Source of the DNA: Pseudomonadota bacterium
GTDB taxonomy: Bacteria > Pseudomonadota > Gammaproteobacteria > Acidiferrobacterales > UBA6901
DNA: 64,000 bases
Assembly: GCA_021785515.1 (NCBI GenBank)
Contig: JAJYEX010000003.1
Span: forward strand, 124,001 to 188,000
Direction of reading: 5' to 3'
The position numbers and the translations under genes were made by a program. The notes below the pieces were generated by a model. That model was not told where the DNA came from. It did no database searches and saw only the letters and a list, made by a program, of their open reading frames with translations. This document shows, piece after piece, positions 6,285 to 40,113 of the stretch (position 1 is its first letter; every line of letters starts with the position of its first letter).

Positions 6285-7084
6285 GGTGTGTGTCCCCCTT
6301 ATATTTCGAAGCATCATTCAGTTTTGTCGAAACTGTTGTGGCGTGTAACGTGCGCCACCCAAGGCCCTTGCACCCGTTATCCGGTCGTGGAGCGCACGCA
6401 GGCACCCCGTCTCAGCGACAGCCTCTGTCGTGACACCGCGCGATGCGCAGGCACCCCCGCCCCGGCGCATCCGACGATGGCGCTTGATGGTTCATGCCAT
6501 GAGTGGTGACCATGATAATGAGAGGCCACTTACGGATCGCTTACAGATTGGTGAGTACGGACAACATTTTTCTATCGGGGACAGCCGGCATTATGGATGG
6601 GTGGGGAGGTGCCTGACAGACGGCGCAGTTCTGGTCCGGGCGGGCAGGGTTCTTAAACTCATTATTGATATTTTCGTTCGATCCCTCAGACGACGAGACC
6701 CTCCATCTGCCCCACGCCGGGATGGTCGCGCGGGTTAAGATGCGTCTTGGAGCTATGGCCAGATCACAGCCCGCACAACTACCAACTACCCGGCAATCGC
6801 CGATCAATTAGGTGTCATCCCGTACAGGATGTGCCCAAGAAACACGAACTGCTTTGGGAGCAACAGTGGCTGGGATTAAAGTCCTGACAGCGGGGGCTGG
6901 CCAGGATTGCGGAAAACCGCGACTTTTATATTCCTTAAAGAGATCCGTCTCGTCTCTTTAAAATTGCCGAGCTTTGATCGTCGAGGCACACCTTGCGCTG
7001 CGGTGAATCGCCTATTGTCCCGGGTCCTGGAACCCTGGCGTTGTGAAACGCGCAAGGTTTATGAGTCTTTTAGATTAAGTACAG
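6285..7084. other. Intergenic stretch without a convincing gene
   Basis: About 800 bases between the broken Kelch gene and the TM2 gene. Only short overlapping frames with no family signature are present. The one clear structure is an AT-rich inverted repeat at 6935-6961. It is probably decayed accessory DNA. Confidence 0.5.
6935..6961. repeat. Inverted repeat, 9-bp arms
   Basis: TTAAAGAGA at 6935-6943 is the exact reverse complement of TCTCTTTAA at 6953-6961, with a 9-base loop. It could be an operator or a stem-loop; no gene is close. Confidence 0.4.
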
Positions 7085-7573
7085 TTACTTCTTCTGGGTC
7101 AGTTCGCGCAGCAGGCGCTCCTGTTCGGCGAACGACAGGACACGGCGGCTTTCAGCCCCCGCCGCCGGCGCAGCGGCCGTCTCCTCCGTATCGGTGAAGT
7201 GGCCGCGGAACCCGGCCGGCGCCTGGTTGCCCGGGCGCAGGTATTCCGCCAGACGGATCCGTTTGTTGAGGCGGGTGACGCGACGTTCGATCCAGACCAG
7301 ATCGTACACGGCCCAGAGGACCGCTGCCGCGGCCGGGATCAGCGCCCATGCCGCCCCCGGCAGGCTCAGACGCAGGATGATGGCGAGCGCCGTGAGGCCG
7401 GTGTACCCCAGGGCCAGTGGCAGGTCATCGAGGTAGATCCGGTGGGCGCCCACGGGGAATAAAAGCCACAGAAAATACGCGATTTTTCGTTGTTTCAGGT
7501 GCTGGACGAGGCGCAGGTTCGCGCTCTGCACGCCGCCTCCCTCGAGGTCCAGTTTTTGCCAGGCAGGAGCCAT
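7085..7573 (-). CDS. TM2-domain membrane protein
   Basis: A 162-residue protein. Residues about 29-90 form the TM2 unit: KQRKIAYFLWLLFPVGAHRI, a short loop, then a second hydrophobic helix through LGYTGLTALAIIL, with a further hydrophobic stretch LIPAAAAVLWAVYDLVWI. The C-terminus is soluble, Ala/Glu-rich and ends ELTQKK. TM2 proteins are small inner-membrane proteins of unknown biochemical role. It is divergent from the LysR-family gene at 7682 across a short AT-rich region that must hold both promoters. Confidence 0.8.
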   Translation of the reverse strand: MAPAWQKLDLEGGGVQSANLRLVQHLKQRKIAYFLWLLFPVGAHRIYLDDLPLALGYTGLTALAIILRLSLPGAAWALIPAAAAVLWAVYDLVWIERRVTRLNKRIRLAEYLRPGNQAPAGFRGHFTDTEETAAAPAAGAESRRVLSFAEQERLLRELTQKK

Positions 7574-7681
7574 TAATTAGTCGCAATTAACGAAAAATAT
7601 TTGCAATAAGCCGTGTTTATGCTGAAATGTTCACCCCTGTCCCAGCGCGCCTGATGGCGCCCGGTCCTCTGACAAGACGCC

Positions 7682-8608
7682 ATGGCTGATCGCAGACTCC
7701 AAGTTTTTCACACTGTAGCGCGTCTCCTGAGCTTTACCAAGGCGGCGGAAACGCTGCATATGACGCAGCCCGCAGTGACCTTCCAGATCCGCCAGCTCGA
7801 AGAGCATTTCAATACCCGCCTCTTTGACCGGACCCACAACCGCATCAGCCTCACCGCCGCCGGGGACCGGGTGTACGAATACGCCGAACAGATCATCGTG
7901 CTGTACAGCGAGATGGACAGCCGCGTGCGCGAGCTGACCGGCGACGTAAGCGGCATCCTGATCATCGGCGCCAGCACGACCATCGCCGAGTACGTGTTGC
8001 CCGGCTTGCTGGGAGAATTCCAGGTGCGCTACCCGGATGTCAACGTGCGCCTGAGCGTGTCCAATTCGCTCGGTATCGTCCATCTGGTCGAGAACAACTC
8101 GGTGGATGTGGGCATCGTCGAGTCACCGGTGACCAACAAGAATCTGGCGGTGGAGGTCTGCTGGCACGATGAGCTGGTCTTCATCTGTCCGCCGCACCAC
8201 GCCCTGGCCAAGAAGCAGTTGATTACGGTGGCCGAACTCGCGGACCTGCCCTTTCTCTCCCGGGAGGAGGGTTCGGGCACGCGTGAAGTCATCGCCGAAT
8301 ATCTGTCCCAGAATGGCATCCAGCTGCAGGATCTCAACCTGTGCATGGAGTTCGGCAGCCCGGAATCGATCAAGAGCGCGGTCGAGGCCGGGCTCGGTGT
8401 GTCGATCGTATCGCGCGCGACTGTGGGCAAGGAGCTCAAGCTCGGGACTCTGGTGGCGCTGCCGTTGCGCCCACAGCTGGAGCGGCCGTTCTCCTTCGTA
8501 TACCAGCGCCAGAAGTTCCGGCTGCGTGCCGTGGACGAGTTCATGAAGTTTGCCCACGAGCATTGCGAGCGCCGCGTCGCGCAGTCCAAGGACACGGCCG
8601 CGGACTGA
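7682..8608 (+). CDS. LysR-family transcriptional regulator
   Basis: 308 residues with the N-terminal winged HTH (LQVFHTVARLLSFTKAAETL, then MTQPAVTFQIRQLE) and a periplasmic-binding-like effector domain (GILIIGASTTIAEYVLP, DVGIVESP, AGLGVSIVSR). This is the standard length and order for LysR regulators that bind an anionic small-molecule inducer and act on a divergent or downstream promoter. Candidate targets are the divergent TM2 gene and the amidotransferase-like gene 46 bases downstream. The inducer cannot be read from the sequence. Confidence 0.92.
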   Translation: MADRRLQVFHTVARLLSFTKAAETLHMTQPAVTFQIRQLEEHFNTRLFDRTHNRISLTAAGDRVYEYAEQIIVLYSEMDSRVRELTGDVSGILIIGASTTIAEYVLPGLLGEFQVRYPDVNVRLSVSNSLGIVHLVENNSVDVGIVESPVTNKNLAVEVCWHDELVFICPPHHALAKKQLITVAELADLPFLSREEGSGTREVIAEYLSQNGIQLQDLNLCMEFGSPESIKSAVEAGLGVSIVSRATVGKELKLGTLVALPLRPQLERPFSFVYQRQKFRLRAVDEFMKFAHEHCERRVAQSKDTAAD

Positions 8609-8654
8609 GGCGCGCGCCTGCGCGCTGGGCCGGACGCGGTCACGGGATTTCGTC

Positions 8655-9401
8655 ATGAAACAGTTCGTTGTCGTACAGCATACCTATTCCGAATTCCTGG
8701 GCACCATAGAGAACCAGCTGGAAAAGCGCGACATCGGATTCGCCTACTTCCGGCCATTCGTGGGGCAGGAGTTGCCCGGCAGCGCCGGCCAGTTCGACGC
8801 GCTGTTTCTGCTGGGCGGGTCGCGCCCGACCGCCGATCGCCAGGCCTGCCCCTGGGTCGAGGACGAGTTGCGGCTGGTCGGGATGTTCCTGCAGGCGCAG
8901 CGGCCAGTCGTGGGTTTCGGGTTCGGTGCCATGGTGCTGGCCGAGTACGCGGGCGCCAGGATATCGGCCGAACCCTTTCATACCGCCTACTGGACAACCG
9001 GCCACAAGACTGCGGCCGGCGCCGGTGACGCCCTGGCCGAGGCTGTGGACGGACGACGGCTGTTCGTCATGTACAATGGCCGGGCGGTCCTGCCCCCGGG
9101 CATGGAACCGATCGTCGTCGACGATGACGGCAACTGGCTGGCGGTGCGCACGCAGAAGGAATGCTACGCCATGCTCTTCCGTCCGGAACTCAAGCCGGGC
9201 ATGATCGAGGACATGATCATGGAGGCCAAGCGCCCGGTTCCGGACAACGTGGAAGCGCTGCTGGCCGAGGCGCGCCGGGAATGGAAGGACACCGAACAGA
9301 CCAAGGACCGGGTGATTGTCGCCCTGGTGCGTGAACTTGATCTCATGCGGGAGCGGCACAAGATGCCCGTCTTCCGGCTGAACGTCCCGGATAATTCCTG
9401 A
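8655..9401 (+). CDS. Class I glutamine-amidotransferase-like protein lacking the catalytic Cys
   Basis: Starts at ATG 8655 (MKQFVVVQHTYSEF), 46 bases after the LysR-family gene; a longer frame from 8550 would lie inside that gene. The first ~180 residues follow the GATase1/GMP-synthase-like fold: FDALFLLGGSRPTADRQ, then VVGFGFGAMVLAEYAG at the nucleophile elbow, then FHTAYWTTG and MLFRPELKPGM. In active enzymes the elbow is G-x-C-x-G; here the Cys is Gly. Glutaminase activity is therefore unlikely and a binding or regulatory role is inferred. The C-terminal ~60 residues are helical and charged. It is followed after two bases by the next gene. Confidence 0.72.
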   Translation: MKQFVVVQHTYSEFLGTIENQLEKRDIGFAYFRPFVGQELPGSAGQFDALFLLGGSRPTADRQACPWVEDELRLVGMFLQAQRPVVGFGFGAMVLAEYAGARISAEPFHTAYWTTGHKTAAGAGDALAEAVDGRRLFVMYNGRAVLPPGMEPIVVDDDGNWLAVRTQKECYAMLFRPELKPGMIEDMIMEAKRPVPDNVEALLAEARREWKDTEQTKDRVIVALVRELDLMRERHKMPVFRLNVPDNS

Positions 9402-35701: not shown

Positions 35702-35897
35702 GACCGCGTACCTGGAACCTGTCCAGGGATCGTCGTCCGTGGGGCCGACTTTGCGGTCGTCCGTCGCGCGCCACTCCGTGCTCACGATTTCTGTTCGTCC
35801 GGGTCTGCAGCGCGCGATGGGACTGACCACGATTGGGTGTTGGCGCGGGGTCGGAGCGCAGCAAAGCATATTTCTCACCGGTGTTTGACGCGCGGGC

Positions 35898-35928
35898 TTG
35901 ACACGGTTTGTCTGGCCCGCCCTATACT
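35898..35928 (+). promoter_or_regulatory. Promoter upstream of the 36016 gene
   Basis: TTGACA and TATACT are near-consensus hexamers, 19 bases apart, 87 bases before the ATG. The region 35702-36015 holds no other feature. Confidence 0.5.
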
Positions 35929-36015
35929 CACGCTGCGACGCAGGCCGCTGGCCTATGCGTCCGGATGGCGCCAGGCACCCAGGCGCCGGGAACAGTCCAT
36001 CACGGAGGATTAATA

Positions 36016-36378
36016 ATGTTATCAGCGATAAAGAAAGGTCTGCTGGCCGGAAGTCTTTTCGTTCTCGGCGCAGCGAGTGCATCGGCGGCGCCGTTTTGCG
36101 TCTTCTCCGGAGCCTGGCATGGTCAGCGCGTGTGTCTGCGCAACGTACGCAACGTGACGGTCGAGCGCCTTCCGGGGGTGAGACAGGTGGGGCAGATCGC
36201 GAATTTCCGGGCATTCGAGCCCGCGGCGGCGCGTCCGCCGTTTCGTTGCCTCAATGGGAAGCAGCTCAATGTGTGGCGGACTCCCAGATTGTTCCATGGT
36301 CGCCCGGTCGTACACAACGGCGACCAGGGTCCACAGTGCACCTATGGCACTTGGCTGATTACCCGTATCCGACCGTAA
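36016..36378 (+). CDS. Small exported Cys-containing protein
   Basis: ATG 36016 follows ACGGAGGAT. 120 residues with a clear signal peptide (GLLAGSLFVLGAASASA, cut before APFC). The mature part has four Cys (FCVF, VCLR, RCLN, QCTY), enough for two disulfides, and is basic. No family is recognised. It is expressed from its own promoter and may belong with the exported-protein cluster downstream. Confidence 0.72.
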   Translation: MLSAIKKGLLAGSLFVLGAASASAAPFCVFSGAWHGQRVCLRNVRNVTVERLPGVRQVGQIANFRAFEPAAARPPFRCLNGKQLNVWRTPRLFHGRPVVHNGDQGPQCTYGTWLITRIRP

Positions 36379-36564
36379 GCCTGTCCGACAGCGGTAGACT
36401 CTGTCCGGCCAATAGTCATAGCGCGGTCGGGGCCACATGCGTGTGAGCGCACTTTCGGGATAGCGATGGCTCACTCCGCCGCGCAGCCAGATGGCCTGCG
36501 ATACCGTGATTCTGTTGCCGTTCTAAATGTGACACGAATCAGGAGCCGGCAATAACCCTTGCTA

Positions 36565-36593
36565 TTGACAGGGAATGTCTGCAGCGCTAGGTT
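36565..36593 (+). promoter_or_regulatory. Promoter upstream of the YkgJ gene
   Basis: TTGACA, a 17-base spacer and TAGGTT, ending 62 bases before the ATG at 36656. Likely the start of the YkgJ-to-barrel unit. Confidence 0.45.
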
Positions 36594-36655
36594 TTTTTGG
36601 GCAACGTATTCCTGTCAGGTCGCGAGACGCGTAGAGATGCTCGCGAGGGCTGGTC

Positions 36656-37345
36656 ATGACGAACAGGGTGCGGGACAACGGGGGGAGAGATGAGCGCTTC
36701 GGCTATCGCTGTGGCCGATGCGGAAAGTGTTGCCGCGGTAAACTGATTCAGGTCAATCCCTACGAGGTCGGGCGTCTCGCGCGGTGCCTGCAGCAGAGCA
36801 CAACGCAGTTTCGCACCGCCTGGACCGACGCGGGTGCCGGCAACTATCTGCGGCGCAACCCCGACGGTACCTGTGTATTTCTCACACCCGCTGGCTGCGG
36901 CGTATACGCCGACCGGCCACTGGTCTGCCGAATTTATCCCCTGGGTCGGCACGTGTCGGCGGCCGGCGCGGAACGCTGGTCGCATGTGCCGCCGCACTTT
37001 CTGTCGGAGGGCCGGTACACCCATGAGGGCACCATCGCCGATTTTCTTGCTACGCAGGGGGCAGAGCCATTCATGGATGCCTGCGACCAGTATCACCGGT
37101 GGGTGCTCCGGGCCGCAGAAGTCCTGGGTCAAGGCAGTCCCGATGGCGATGGTGAACAGGGCGAAGCGCTTGCAGATCTGACCGACATGGATGCCGCAAT
37201 CAGTGCCTATTGCGATGCGCTAAAGCAGGCAGAGCCCGGTGATATCGAGGTCCGCAAGGATCTTCATCTCGAAATTCTTTATCAGCGACTCGAAGAGGTC
37301 GCAGGAGGCAACGATGAACGCAGACATTCCGCAGCACCCGGATGA
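36656..37345 (+). CDS. YkgJ-family Cys-cluster protein
   Basis: 229 residues. The N-terminal cluster CGRCGKCCRG and later CVFLTPAGCGVY and CRIYPLGRH are the CxxCxxCC metal-binding signature of YkgJ/UPF0153 proteins (zinc or iron). The flagellin lysine methylase FliB carries a related cluster, so protein modification is a possible role. The gene overlaps the start of the next one by 32 bases, linking it to an exported protein. Confidence 0.85.
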   Translation: MTNRVRDNGGRDERFGYRCGRCGKCCRGKLIQVNPYEVGRLARCLQQSTTQFRTAWTDAGAGNYLRRNPDGTCVFLTPAGCGVYADRPLVCRIYPLGRHVSAAGAERWSHVPPHFLSEGRYTHEGTIADFLATQGAEPFMDACDQYHRWVLRAAEVLGQGSPDGDGEQGEALADLTDMDAAISAYCDALKQAEPGDIEVRKDLHLEILYQRLEEVAGGNDERRHSAAPG

Positions 37346-37880
37346 GGCCGCCTCTGCGGCAACGGTGGATGGCCGGAAGCTTCGGCCGGGCCAGATCGCG
37401 GCGGCGGCCGCGGCAATAGGTATTTCCCTGGGGATGTATGCCGTGCCGTCGCAGGCGGCGTTCGACAGCTATAGCGTTCACCCTGCGGCCCAGGGCCAAC
37501 CGCATGCTCCAGCGCCGAATCCGCAAAACAGTGTCAACGGACAACATTCGGCTCCATCGCCCGGTGGTACCGGTGAGACGATTACCCGCAAAGTGGATGC
37601 CCCCAATGGCGAGGCGATCTATCTAAAAATGGACTCGTCGGGCCAGACTGGAGCACAACCAGGATCTGGGACCTCATCCGACACTTCTTTTGAGTACGGG
37701 TCCAAGCCAGCCCCGCCGACGCCGGCTTCTCGCGGTTCGGGAACGGCCAATGTCCAGAAGGCGCGCGAGTCTTTGTCGGGCGATCCGCACGAGCGCCCGA
37801 GTTCGGGTTCGGCAAGCCATCCGGGTAGCAAGGAGACAGGAGTGGGATGGTCCTGGGGCGCTTCAAAGCCCCAAAAGTAG
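37314..37880 (+). CDS. Exported low-complexity protein
   Basis: ATG 37314 follows GCAGGAGGCAACG. 188 residues. An unusually long ~27-residue N-region (MNADIPQHPDEAASAATVDG and on) precedes a hydrophobic helix (IAAAAAAIGISLGMYAV) and a PSQA-A cleavage-like site. The mature protein is Ser/Gly/Pro-rich and largely disordered, with one ordered island (ETITRKVDAPNGEAIYLKMD). No family is recognised. It overlaps the YkgJ gene, so the two are made together; a substrate or modification partner is a fair inference. Confidence 0.65.
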   Translation: MNADIPQHPDEAASAATVDGRKLRPGQIAAAAAAIGISLGMYAVPSQAAFDSYSVHPAAQGQPHAPAPNPQNSVNGQHSAPSPGGTGETITRKVDAPNGEAIYLKMDSSGQTGAQPGSGTSSDTSFEYGSKPAPPTPASRGSGTANVQKARESLSGDPHERPSSGSASHPGSKETGVGWSWGASKPQK

Positions 37881-38078
37881 AAATTCGGGGACAGCAGACC
37901 CGGCGCGCCGGTTCCCGCCATCGGTCCACAGCCGATGGGGCGGCAAGGCGGCAGTGATGCTGGGCGGGGAGGATTGCCGGAGCAGGCGCGCTGGCGGTCA
38001 TGGTCGGATGGACTGGTCGCGCAGGAGGGTATCGTGCGGCATCAGAAAAATTGCGGAATCTGCCGGAATCAGACCGGC

Positions 38079-38375
38079 ATGAAAGTGCTGTTCCGTATTG
38101 CCGCGACAATAGGGATGCTGGGTTTTGCAGCTCCGGTCCTGGCGCATGGTGGGGCGCGCGCAGTGACCCCGCCGCCTCCACTCAGCCATTTCACCACCCG
38201 GTACGGATTCCCGACCTTCCCGCGACTTGCGCATCGCGCCAGCCGGTACAAGGCTCCGGTGATCTATAACGGGCCCGACTACACGGCGTCGCGCATCGGC
38301 GACCTCAGCAAGGCGCCCATCGTGGAGAATGCCAAGCCCCCGCCCCCACCCCCGCCGCCCCCGCCACGCGTGTAA
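38079..38375 (+). CDS. Small exported proline-rich protein
   Basis: 98 residues. A signal peptide (LFRIAATIGMLGFAAPVLA, cut before HGG). The mature chain carries VTPPPPLSHFTTRYGFP and ends in a run of ten prolines followed by RV. It is 56 bases before the barrel gene. No family is recognised; the Pro-rich end suggests a wall- or surface-spanning or unfolded role. Confidence 0.6.
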   Translation: MKVLFRIAATIGMLGFAAPVLAHGGARAVTPPPPLSHFTTRYGFPTFPRLAHRASRYKAPVIYNGPDYTASRIGDLSKAPIVENAKPPPPPPPPPPRV

Positions 38376-38430
38376 CGCGGGTCGCGTTCGGCCGGTTTTC
38401 AAGGTTCCGCAGTCGACAGGTAACCGAGGG

Positions 38431-39762
38431 ATGAAAAAAAACGCTGCGTGCAGCGCTGCAGCCGGGAGGGTTTTCATCGCGGTGTTTCTGGCAACCGTAT
38501 GGCTGCCAAGGACCGCGGTTGCCTCCGCGGCCGACGTCACGGCAGTGAAGGCGCAGGCAAGCCAGCTGCTGGAGGCCGGTCACGCCCGCCAGGCCTGCGC
38601 CATCCTGGAGCCGAAGCTCGCGGCGCACTCAGAGGATCTCGTGCTCCGCTTTCTGATCGGCCAGTGTCTGGCGGGCGAACGCCGCCCCCGCGCCGCCATT
38701 ATCGAGTATCGCTACATCCTGGCCCGCAAGCCACAGGCCCTGCGCGTCCGTGCCGAGATGGCTTCCGCCGAATTCGCGGCGGGCGATACCGCGGCCGCCC
38801 GGACCGATCTGCAGCGGGTGCTGGCTCATCCGCTGCCGTCCGCGGTGCGTGTCCGGCTTCAGGCACTCTTGCGGACAATTCCGCGGCGACCGCAATGGTC
38901 GGGGGGGATTTCGCTCGGCTTGATGTATGACAGCAATGCCGACCTTGGCCCGCTGAACAACGTCGTCACCCTGTTCGGTGCACCCGTCCAGCTGGTCGGC
39001 AAACCGCCCCGAAAGGTTGGCGCCTGGGCGGTACTGCCGACCGTCAACCTCAATTACAGCTATCCGGTCAACAGCCGGTGGACGTGGACGGCAAATGCGG
39101 CGGCGAACGATGTGACCTATGCCGGGGCATCCCAGTACGATTTCGATTCGTACTCGATATTTGCAGGGCCCGCGTTTCATACCGACCGGATGAGCATTTT
39201 GAGCAACTTCGGAGCGAATCTGGCCCGCCTCGGCAATGTACGGTACAGCACCTCGTGGGGCGCCTCGCCCGCCATTTACGTCCAGGTGTCGCGGAGCGTG
39301 CGTTTCGATCAGCAGTTCAACATCCAGAAGAACCGCTATTACAGTACGAGCCTTACCGATGGCTGGTCGTCGTATTCCGTCACGGGGCTGCAATGGCATT
39401 TCTCGGGAACGGCAGCCTATATCGAACCCAGCGTTGTGCTCGCGGACCAGAGTGCCCGCAACGCCCTTTATGGCGATGACCAGGTGGGCGGGTTGCTCTC
39501 CTGGTTCCAGCCACTGGGCGCGCGATTTTCACTGTGGATTGTCCCGGCCGTGAACGAACTCCATTACCATGCGTTCAACCCCGCATTCGGCAGCACCCGG
39601 CACGACAAGACCTACACCCTGACCGCCAATCTGGGATATCAGCCCGGGTTTCACCACAGCCAGATTTCGCTGGGCACAACGCTGACGGAAAATCGCTCGA
39701 ACCAGAGTCTCTACAGCTACGATCGCACCCAAACCACCCTGCAGTGGCAGATGTCGTTCTGA
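38431..39762 (+). CDS. Slam-like outer-membrane protein (TPR plus DUF560-type barrel)
   Basis: ATG 38431 follows ACCGAGGG. 443 residues. A signal peptide (GRVFIAVFLATVWLP) is followed by a TPR-like helical domain (residues ~35-145: QLLEAGHARQACAILEPKL, LIGQCLAGERRPRAAIIEYR). A C-terminal 14-strand-type beta-barrel runs from WSGGISLGLMYDSNADLG to the final aromatic LQWQMSF. This order is that of Slam translocons, which move lipoproteins or secreted proteins to the surface. Similarity is by architecture and the barrel-entry motif; the substrate is unknown. Confidence 0.7.
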   Translation: MKKNAACSAAAGRVFIAVFLATVWLPRTAVASAADVTAVKAQASQLLEAGHARQACAILEPKLAAHSEDLVLRFLIGQCLAGERRPRAAIIEYRYILARKPQALRVRAEMASAEFAAGDTAAARTDLQRVLAHPLPSAVRVRLQALLRTIPRRPQWSGGISLGLMYDSNADLGPLNNVVTLFGAPVQLVGKPPRKVGAWAVLPTVNLNYSYPVNSRWTWTANAAANDVTYAGASQYDFDSYSIFAGPAFHTDRMSILSNFGANLARLGNVRYSTSWGASPAIYVQVSRSVRFDQQFNIQKNRYYSTSLTDGWSSYSVTGLQWHFSGTAAYIEPSVVLADQSARNALYGDDQVGGLLSWFQPLGARFSLWIVPAVNELHYHAFNPAFGSTRHDKTYTLTANLGYQPGFHHSQISLGTTLTENRSNQSLYSYDRTQTTLQWQMSF

Positions 39763-40113
39763 CATCGGCCGGAACGGATGGCGTACTACGCCTTCACCGG
39801 CCTGCCTTTGTGCGCCCCTCGTCTTCAGGGTCAACCGCGGTTGCGGCCGCCCCGGAGAATTCTGCCGGCGGACAATTTCCGGGATGATGAGGCATGCCCT
39901 GTGCGGGCCGTGATCCGTGGGCGGTCCGGCGGCGCCGTCCCGACGATGCGGGTGGGGTCCCACCAAATGCGCCTTGCTTGATCCAGGTCAATGCGCAATC
40001 CGCCCGGCGGCCTAAGTTTAGAATAGCAATAGTGATCTACATTCCCCGGCCGCCGGTTTCGTGTTATGCGCAGCGGCGGAGGAGCGGGCGGGTAGCGGAC
40101 AGGAGGAATGGTC
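39763..40113. other. Intergenic region, no gene
   Basis: About 350 bases between the barrel gene and the small HIG1-like gene; only short shadow frames are present. Confidence 0.4.

Follow-up and report, generated by a model that had tools for sequence, protein, structure and literature searches.

The window analysed here, a stretch of 64,000 nucleotides, contains between positions 36656 and 39762 four adjacent genes on the plus strand that raise the question of whether they work together to bring small proteins to the cell surface and whether those proteins are also modified on the way. An earlier note on this DNA had proposed precisely such a unit of export and modification. We have recovered all four genes where that note had placed them. 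The first (36656..37345) codes for a YkgJ-type CxxCxxCC protein of 229 aa that matches PF03692 with 47.4 bits (cut-off 23), and its end overlaps by exactly 32 nt, as had been described, the gene of an exported low-complexity protein of 188 aa (37314..37880, with its ATG at 37314). They are followed by the genes of an exported proline-rich protein of 98 aa (38079..38375) and of a DUF560/SlipAM-type TPR-plus-barrel protein of 443 aa (38431..39762), for which the ATG at 38431 appears to be the better start since a signal peptide follows it.

These four open reading frames are true genes. When compared with a second genome that carries the same set (see below), the third codon positions were the most diverged in all of them, and the codon comparison indicated purifying selection in the four cases. 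The dN/dS values were 0.21 for the YkgJ-type gene, 0.27 for the proline-rich, 0.18 for the barrel and 0.48 for the low-complexity one, where selection was weakest, all of them rough ratios because synonymous sites are close to saturation. To be the fastest evolving of the set is what is expected of the gene of a surface-exposed product. Promoter and terminator scans of the cassette gave no signal above chance.

The second copy belongs to G033, a genome from the same order but a different family, and lies on contig JAJYDT010000070.1 of MAG DBS1-1.bin113 (locus L015), with the four genes in identical order. The YkgJ-type homologue (6289-7002) is 63% identical to the window protein, the low-complexity one (6944-7495) 36%, the proline-rich one (7513-7791) 59% and the barrel (7793-9133) about 71-73%, and the first two genes overlap here too, by 59 nt. 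Conservation of the neighbours, on which the earlier proposal had been made to depend, was therefore seen in one other genome, and since the genes are kept there as one block they are likely a functional unit. The known copies are thus two, the second on a 9.4-kb MAG contig that is possibly misbinned. Beyond them the cassette proved to be very scarce. A search of 60 relatives gave a single close barrel (73%, in G033), and the two small proteins occurred together with such a barrel in only 2 of the 57 genomes of the order. Among these 57 the low-complexity protein was not found convincingly outside the two genomes; two matches with E about 0.009 in that search, and one with E 0.002 in another, were short and are probably low-complexity noise. 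No third cassette came to light when the proline-rich profile was run against 369 class-level and 349 phylum-level genomes, the barrel search of GTDB species contigs returned the G033 MAG only, viral contigs and plasmids contained none, and all the wider searches gave just one distant DUF560 protein.

The site of the cassette has another content in related genomes. In four congeners (G001-G004, at loci L044, L045, L046 and L048) this site, flanked by genes for an RND pump and a HIG1-domain protein, carries the genes of a two-component system (a sensor kinase and a response regulator). The RND gene is in three of the four a paralogue, 44-45% identical to that of the window, and in G002 there is a gene of the window type (89%) followed by a remnant of the paralogue. 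The DNA similarity between the window and G002 ends at 35708 and restarts at 40098, so that the exchanged segment (35709..40097) comprises the cassette plus one more small exported gene (36017-36378). This gene, upstream of the cassette, codes for a small exported cysteine-containing protein and is absent beside the G033 cassette; its longer reading (35908-36378) had no match in Pfam or NCBIfam. The G033 cassette is away from the genes that flank it in the window, as HIG1 and GGDEF are on a separate contig there (C82). About 120 bases upstream of this cassette lies a gene that resembles a transposase and contains an rve integrase core (L015, 4829-6163, minus strand). In the window the first two genes of the cassette have a GC3 of 0.65, compared to 0.80-0.84 for the RND, GGDEF and ABC genes around them, and no repeats resembling a transposon end were detected inside the segment. 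The same set of genes within different flanks and beside a transposase-like gene, together with the alternative content of the congeners, indicates that the cassette is mobile and co-inherited, besides being very rare.

The barrel protein, like the YkgJ-type one, could be assigned to a family. Its predicted layout is a signal peptide, a TPR domain at about residues 33-150 and an outer-membrane barrel at 156-443, with the terminus ...LQWQMSF. Residues 156-443 align to the SlipAM profile (PF04575) from 1 to 288 of its 288 positions with 38.7 bits (cut-off 22); in the genome search the score was 40.1 bits, and TPR_Slam matched with 25.6 bits, under its cut-off of 35.2. This is the family of the T11SS or Slam proteins (DUF560), with members such as Slam1/2, NilB and HrpB-HrpC. 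By hhalign, the two cassette barrels matched five environmental DUF560-type proteins (99.8%, 383 columns) and, in 360 columns that reach the last residue, four canonical Slam-type proteins (98.9%). Among plasmid proteins the closest annotated relative (tblastn) was a Novosphingobium surface lipoprotein assembly modifier, 27% identical over 90% (E 3e-20), whose gene adjoins a transferrin-binding-protein-like gene. In a tree of 35 barrels the canonical types and the Novosphingobium row formed one clade (96/98), and the cassette pair appeared weakly beside it (84/75) on a long, separate branch that is not part of a 23-row clade of FecR-partnered DUF560 proteins (100/98). By its sequence the cassette barrel is a member of the DUF560/SlipAM family, a divergent Slam relative that stands as a separate lineage in the tree.

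Of the TPR-plus-barrel architecture that had been claimed, the TPR part was modelled by AlphaFold with confidence: it has seven helices, and pLDDT was mostly 82-95 for mature residues 1-120. With a two-row alignment the barrel part had a pLDDT of about 25 and no confident barrel was obtained in which the 14 strands of the Slam fold could be recognised. Solved structures provided no useful relative for either of the cassette proteins queried, and NCBIfam added no specific family for the cassette proteins, only weak TPR matches of the barrel protein to BcsC and PrsT. TPR-plus-barrel proteins also serve polysaccharide export, a reading that we rank below DUF560 because the SlipAM match spans the whole profile.

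The two small proteins are of a different nature. The signal peptide of the low-complexity protein would extend to about residue 48 (PSQA|AFD, by inspection), leaving a mature product of 140 aa rich in S, G, P and A and devoid of Cys. That of the proline-rich protein would end at about residue 22 (VLA|HGG, also by inspection) and the mature product, of 76 aa and equally free of cysteine, has a conserved core (FxxxYGFPTFPxL ... PxIxNGP ... RIxDxxKxPI) and a C-terminal proline run. In a charge-hydropathy plot, a crude measure, both mature proteins lie beyond the line towards disorder and are apparently disordered, and neither has a family or domain in Pfam or NCBIfam. Characterised T11SS cargo carries a C-terminal eight-stranded barrel (TbpB_B_D), as a usual though not universal trait. 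This domain was absent from both small proteins and from both cassette genomes, in a search in which the positive control and genome G011 did give matches. An orphan copy of the proline-rich gene, about 42-44% identical, was found in the same genome on another contig (C16; L016, 9748-10107, minus strand), away from any of the other cassette genes. It has no clear in-frame signal peptide, overlaps the end of a putative AbiEii-type nucleotidyltransferase gene and is possibly a remnant.

How could these products work together? The reading that we prefer, to which we would give a probability of roughly 0.45, is a horizontally moving T11SS-like (Slam/DUF560) exporter with atypical cargo, and it seems reasonable, if still tentative, to suppose that the small proteins are exported by the barrel. 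They would cross the inner membrane by Sec, as suggested by the signal peptides read from the sequence, after which the periplasmic TPR domain would take one or both of them, perhaps through the conserved short stretches that the proline-rich protein carries, and the barrel would deliver this cargo, without lipidation and for the most part unfolded, to the cell surface or beyond it. The YkgJ-type protein would stay in the cytoplasm and bind zinc or a Fe-S cluster at its CX2CX2CC site, as is inferred from its family. Its gene is probably translationally coupled to the low-complexity gene and the protein might therefore conceivably act on this first exported product, hold it or regulate it before export. 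In favor of such an exporter are the conservation of the four genes, their order and the overlap in another family and in a different neighbourhood, and the DUF560 identity on which Pfam, tblastn and hhalign (against two separate groups) agree. Besides, some T11SS members export soluble cargo that is not lipidated (PMC8406197), and TbpBBD cargo is rare next to the DUF560 proteins of cluster 3 (PMC12282271). Against it we must count two small proteins with neither TbpB_B_D nor another known domain, a barrel fold with no confident model, a proline-rich protein that also appears alone in the same genome with no barrel nearby, and the existence of two cassette copies only, one of them possibly misbinned. 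Some of these points would suit better a barrel that acts as an outer-membrane pore or structural protein, with the small proteins as periplasmic partners or plugs that bind to it or to the cell wall. The lack of canonical cargo, the resemblance of the proline-rich core to a binding peptide and the TPR matches to BcsC and PrsT, weak as they are, that recall the polysaccharide-export proteins go in this direction. However, the whole-profile match to PF04575, the 360-column hhalign alignment with the canonical Slam-type rows and the absence of polysaccharide synthesis genes from the cassette make this possibility rather unlikely.

The role of the YkgJ-type protein is a partly separate matter, and two further proposals about it are compatible with export by the barrel. 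The protein lacks a signal peptide and is predicted to be cytoplasmic. Its site is formed by Cys19-X2-Cys22-X2-Cys25-Cys26, and there are five additional cysteines (44, 73, 81, 91 and 186), the arrangement being kept in the second genome. It matches only the general PF03692 family, and NCBIfam gave no match even at E=1. The earlier note saw it as a modifier of the small proteins, displayed afterwards by the barrel, on the analogy of the FliB methylase, which likewise uses a cysteine-rich site, CX4CX3CC, to bind a [4Fe-4S] cluster (PMC8598068). The overlap with the low-complexity gene in both genomes is consistent with a FliB-like methylase or another modifying enzyme. However, the spacing in the cassette protein is CX2CX2CC, so that the methylase idea is a matter of resemblance only, no NCBIfam family supports it, and lysines are few in the mature low-complexity protein (7, of which one is invariant across both genomes). 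The association with DUF560 did not recur either. In the sample of 369 genomes of the class, DUF560 was present in 35 and a YkgJ relative in at least 82, and among the matches listed YkgJ was beside DUF560 in 0 of the 34 other DUF560-bearing genomes; the window had the only pair within 10 kb, the nearest other (G192) being about 13 kb apart. The closest relative in this sample, again among the matches listed, was in G128 (37% over residues 91-212), a truncated gene without exported neighbours. We consider modification by the YkgJ-type protein improbable. Better placed, if somewhat doubtful, is the idea that it is a captured metal-binding or Fe-S protein unrelated to export, the unit proper consisting of the three exported products. 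Its relatives are widespread without an adjoining DUF560 gene (at least 82 of the 369 genomes) and it would be the only cytoplasmic product of the four, but its gene heads both cassettes, overlapping the next one, with a dN/dS of 0.21. There is little chance that the cassette represents a T11SS variant whose recognition signal is a short proline-rich peptide in place of a folded eight-stranded barrel, and which exports disordered cargo prepared in the cytoplasm by a dedicated Fe-S or zinc protein of the YkgJ type.

All in all, the cassette looks like a known secretion system in a rare and unusual form and not like a proven modification machine. Of the unit first proposed, the export side has gained a family for the barrel and a conserved block, and the modification side has found no support. 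No characterised protein falls in nine of the ten DUF560 clusters, which come mainly from water and soil (PMC8406197), and the T11SS tested experimentally belong to cluster 1 only, all from animal-associated bacteria (PMC12282271). Such a compact cassette could show whether a DUF560 barrel exports proteins that lack the usual targeting barrel, and provides a small, testable case of cargo choice beyond cluster 1. Along the same lines, a FecR-domain exported protein directly adjoins the DUF560 barrel at four loci (L049, L050, L051 and L052) and at 19 of 29 class-level loci (L090-L118), and in the 23-row clade of the tree (support 100/98) 22 barrels had a FecR-domain neighbour. These FecR proteins look like T11SS cargo, because the one of L052 (7964-9400) ends in a TbpB_B_D domain above the cut-off. 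We found no description of FecR together with DUF560 in the literature searched. This pattern is more general than the cassette and may merit more attention.

The comparison with known systems summarizes what is familiar and what is peculiar here. With the T11SS or Slam systems the cassette shares the signal peptide, N-terminal TPR and DUF560 barrel, with genes of exported proteins adjoining. It differs in that the neighbours are small, apparently disordered and without an eight-stranded C-terminal barrel, in the additional YkgJ-type gene and in the long branch of its barrel. Soluble non-lipidated cargo, as proposed here for the small proteins, is known in T11SS subcluster 1B. The FecR-partnered DUF560 clade resembles it in having a divergent barrel with TPR and members in the same family and order, but its barrels adjoin exported FecR-domain proteins, of which one ends in TbpB_B_D, and the cassette has neither. 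Like other YkgJ (PF03692) proteins, that of the cassette has a CX2CX2CC site followed by a RPxxCRxYP segment, but it carries about 100 extra residues past the cluster, kept in L015 and in one truncated relative, and is located in an export-like cassette. FliB has in common with it a cysteine-rich N-terminal site, although with CX4CX3CC in place of CX2CX2CC, and the cassette contains no flagellin-like substrate.
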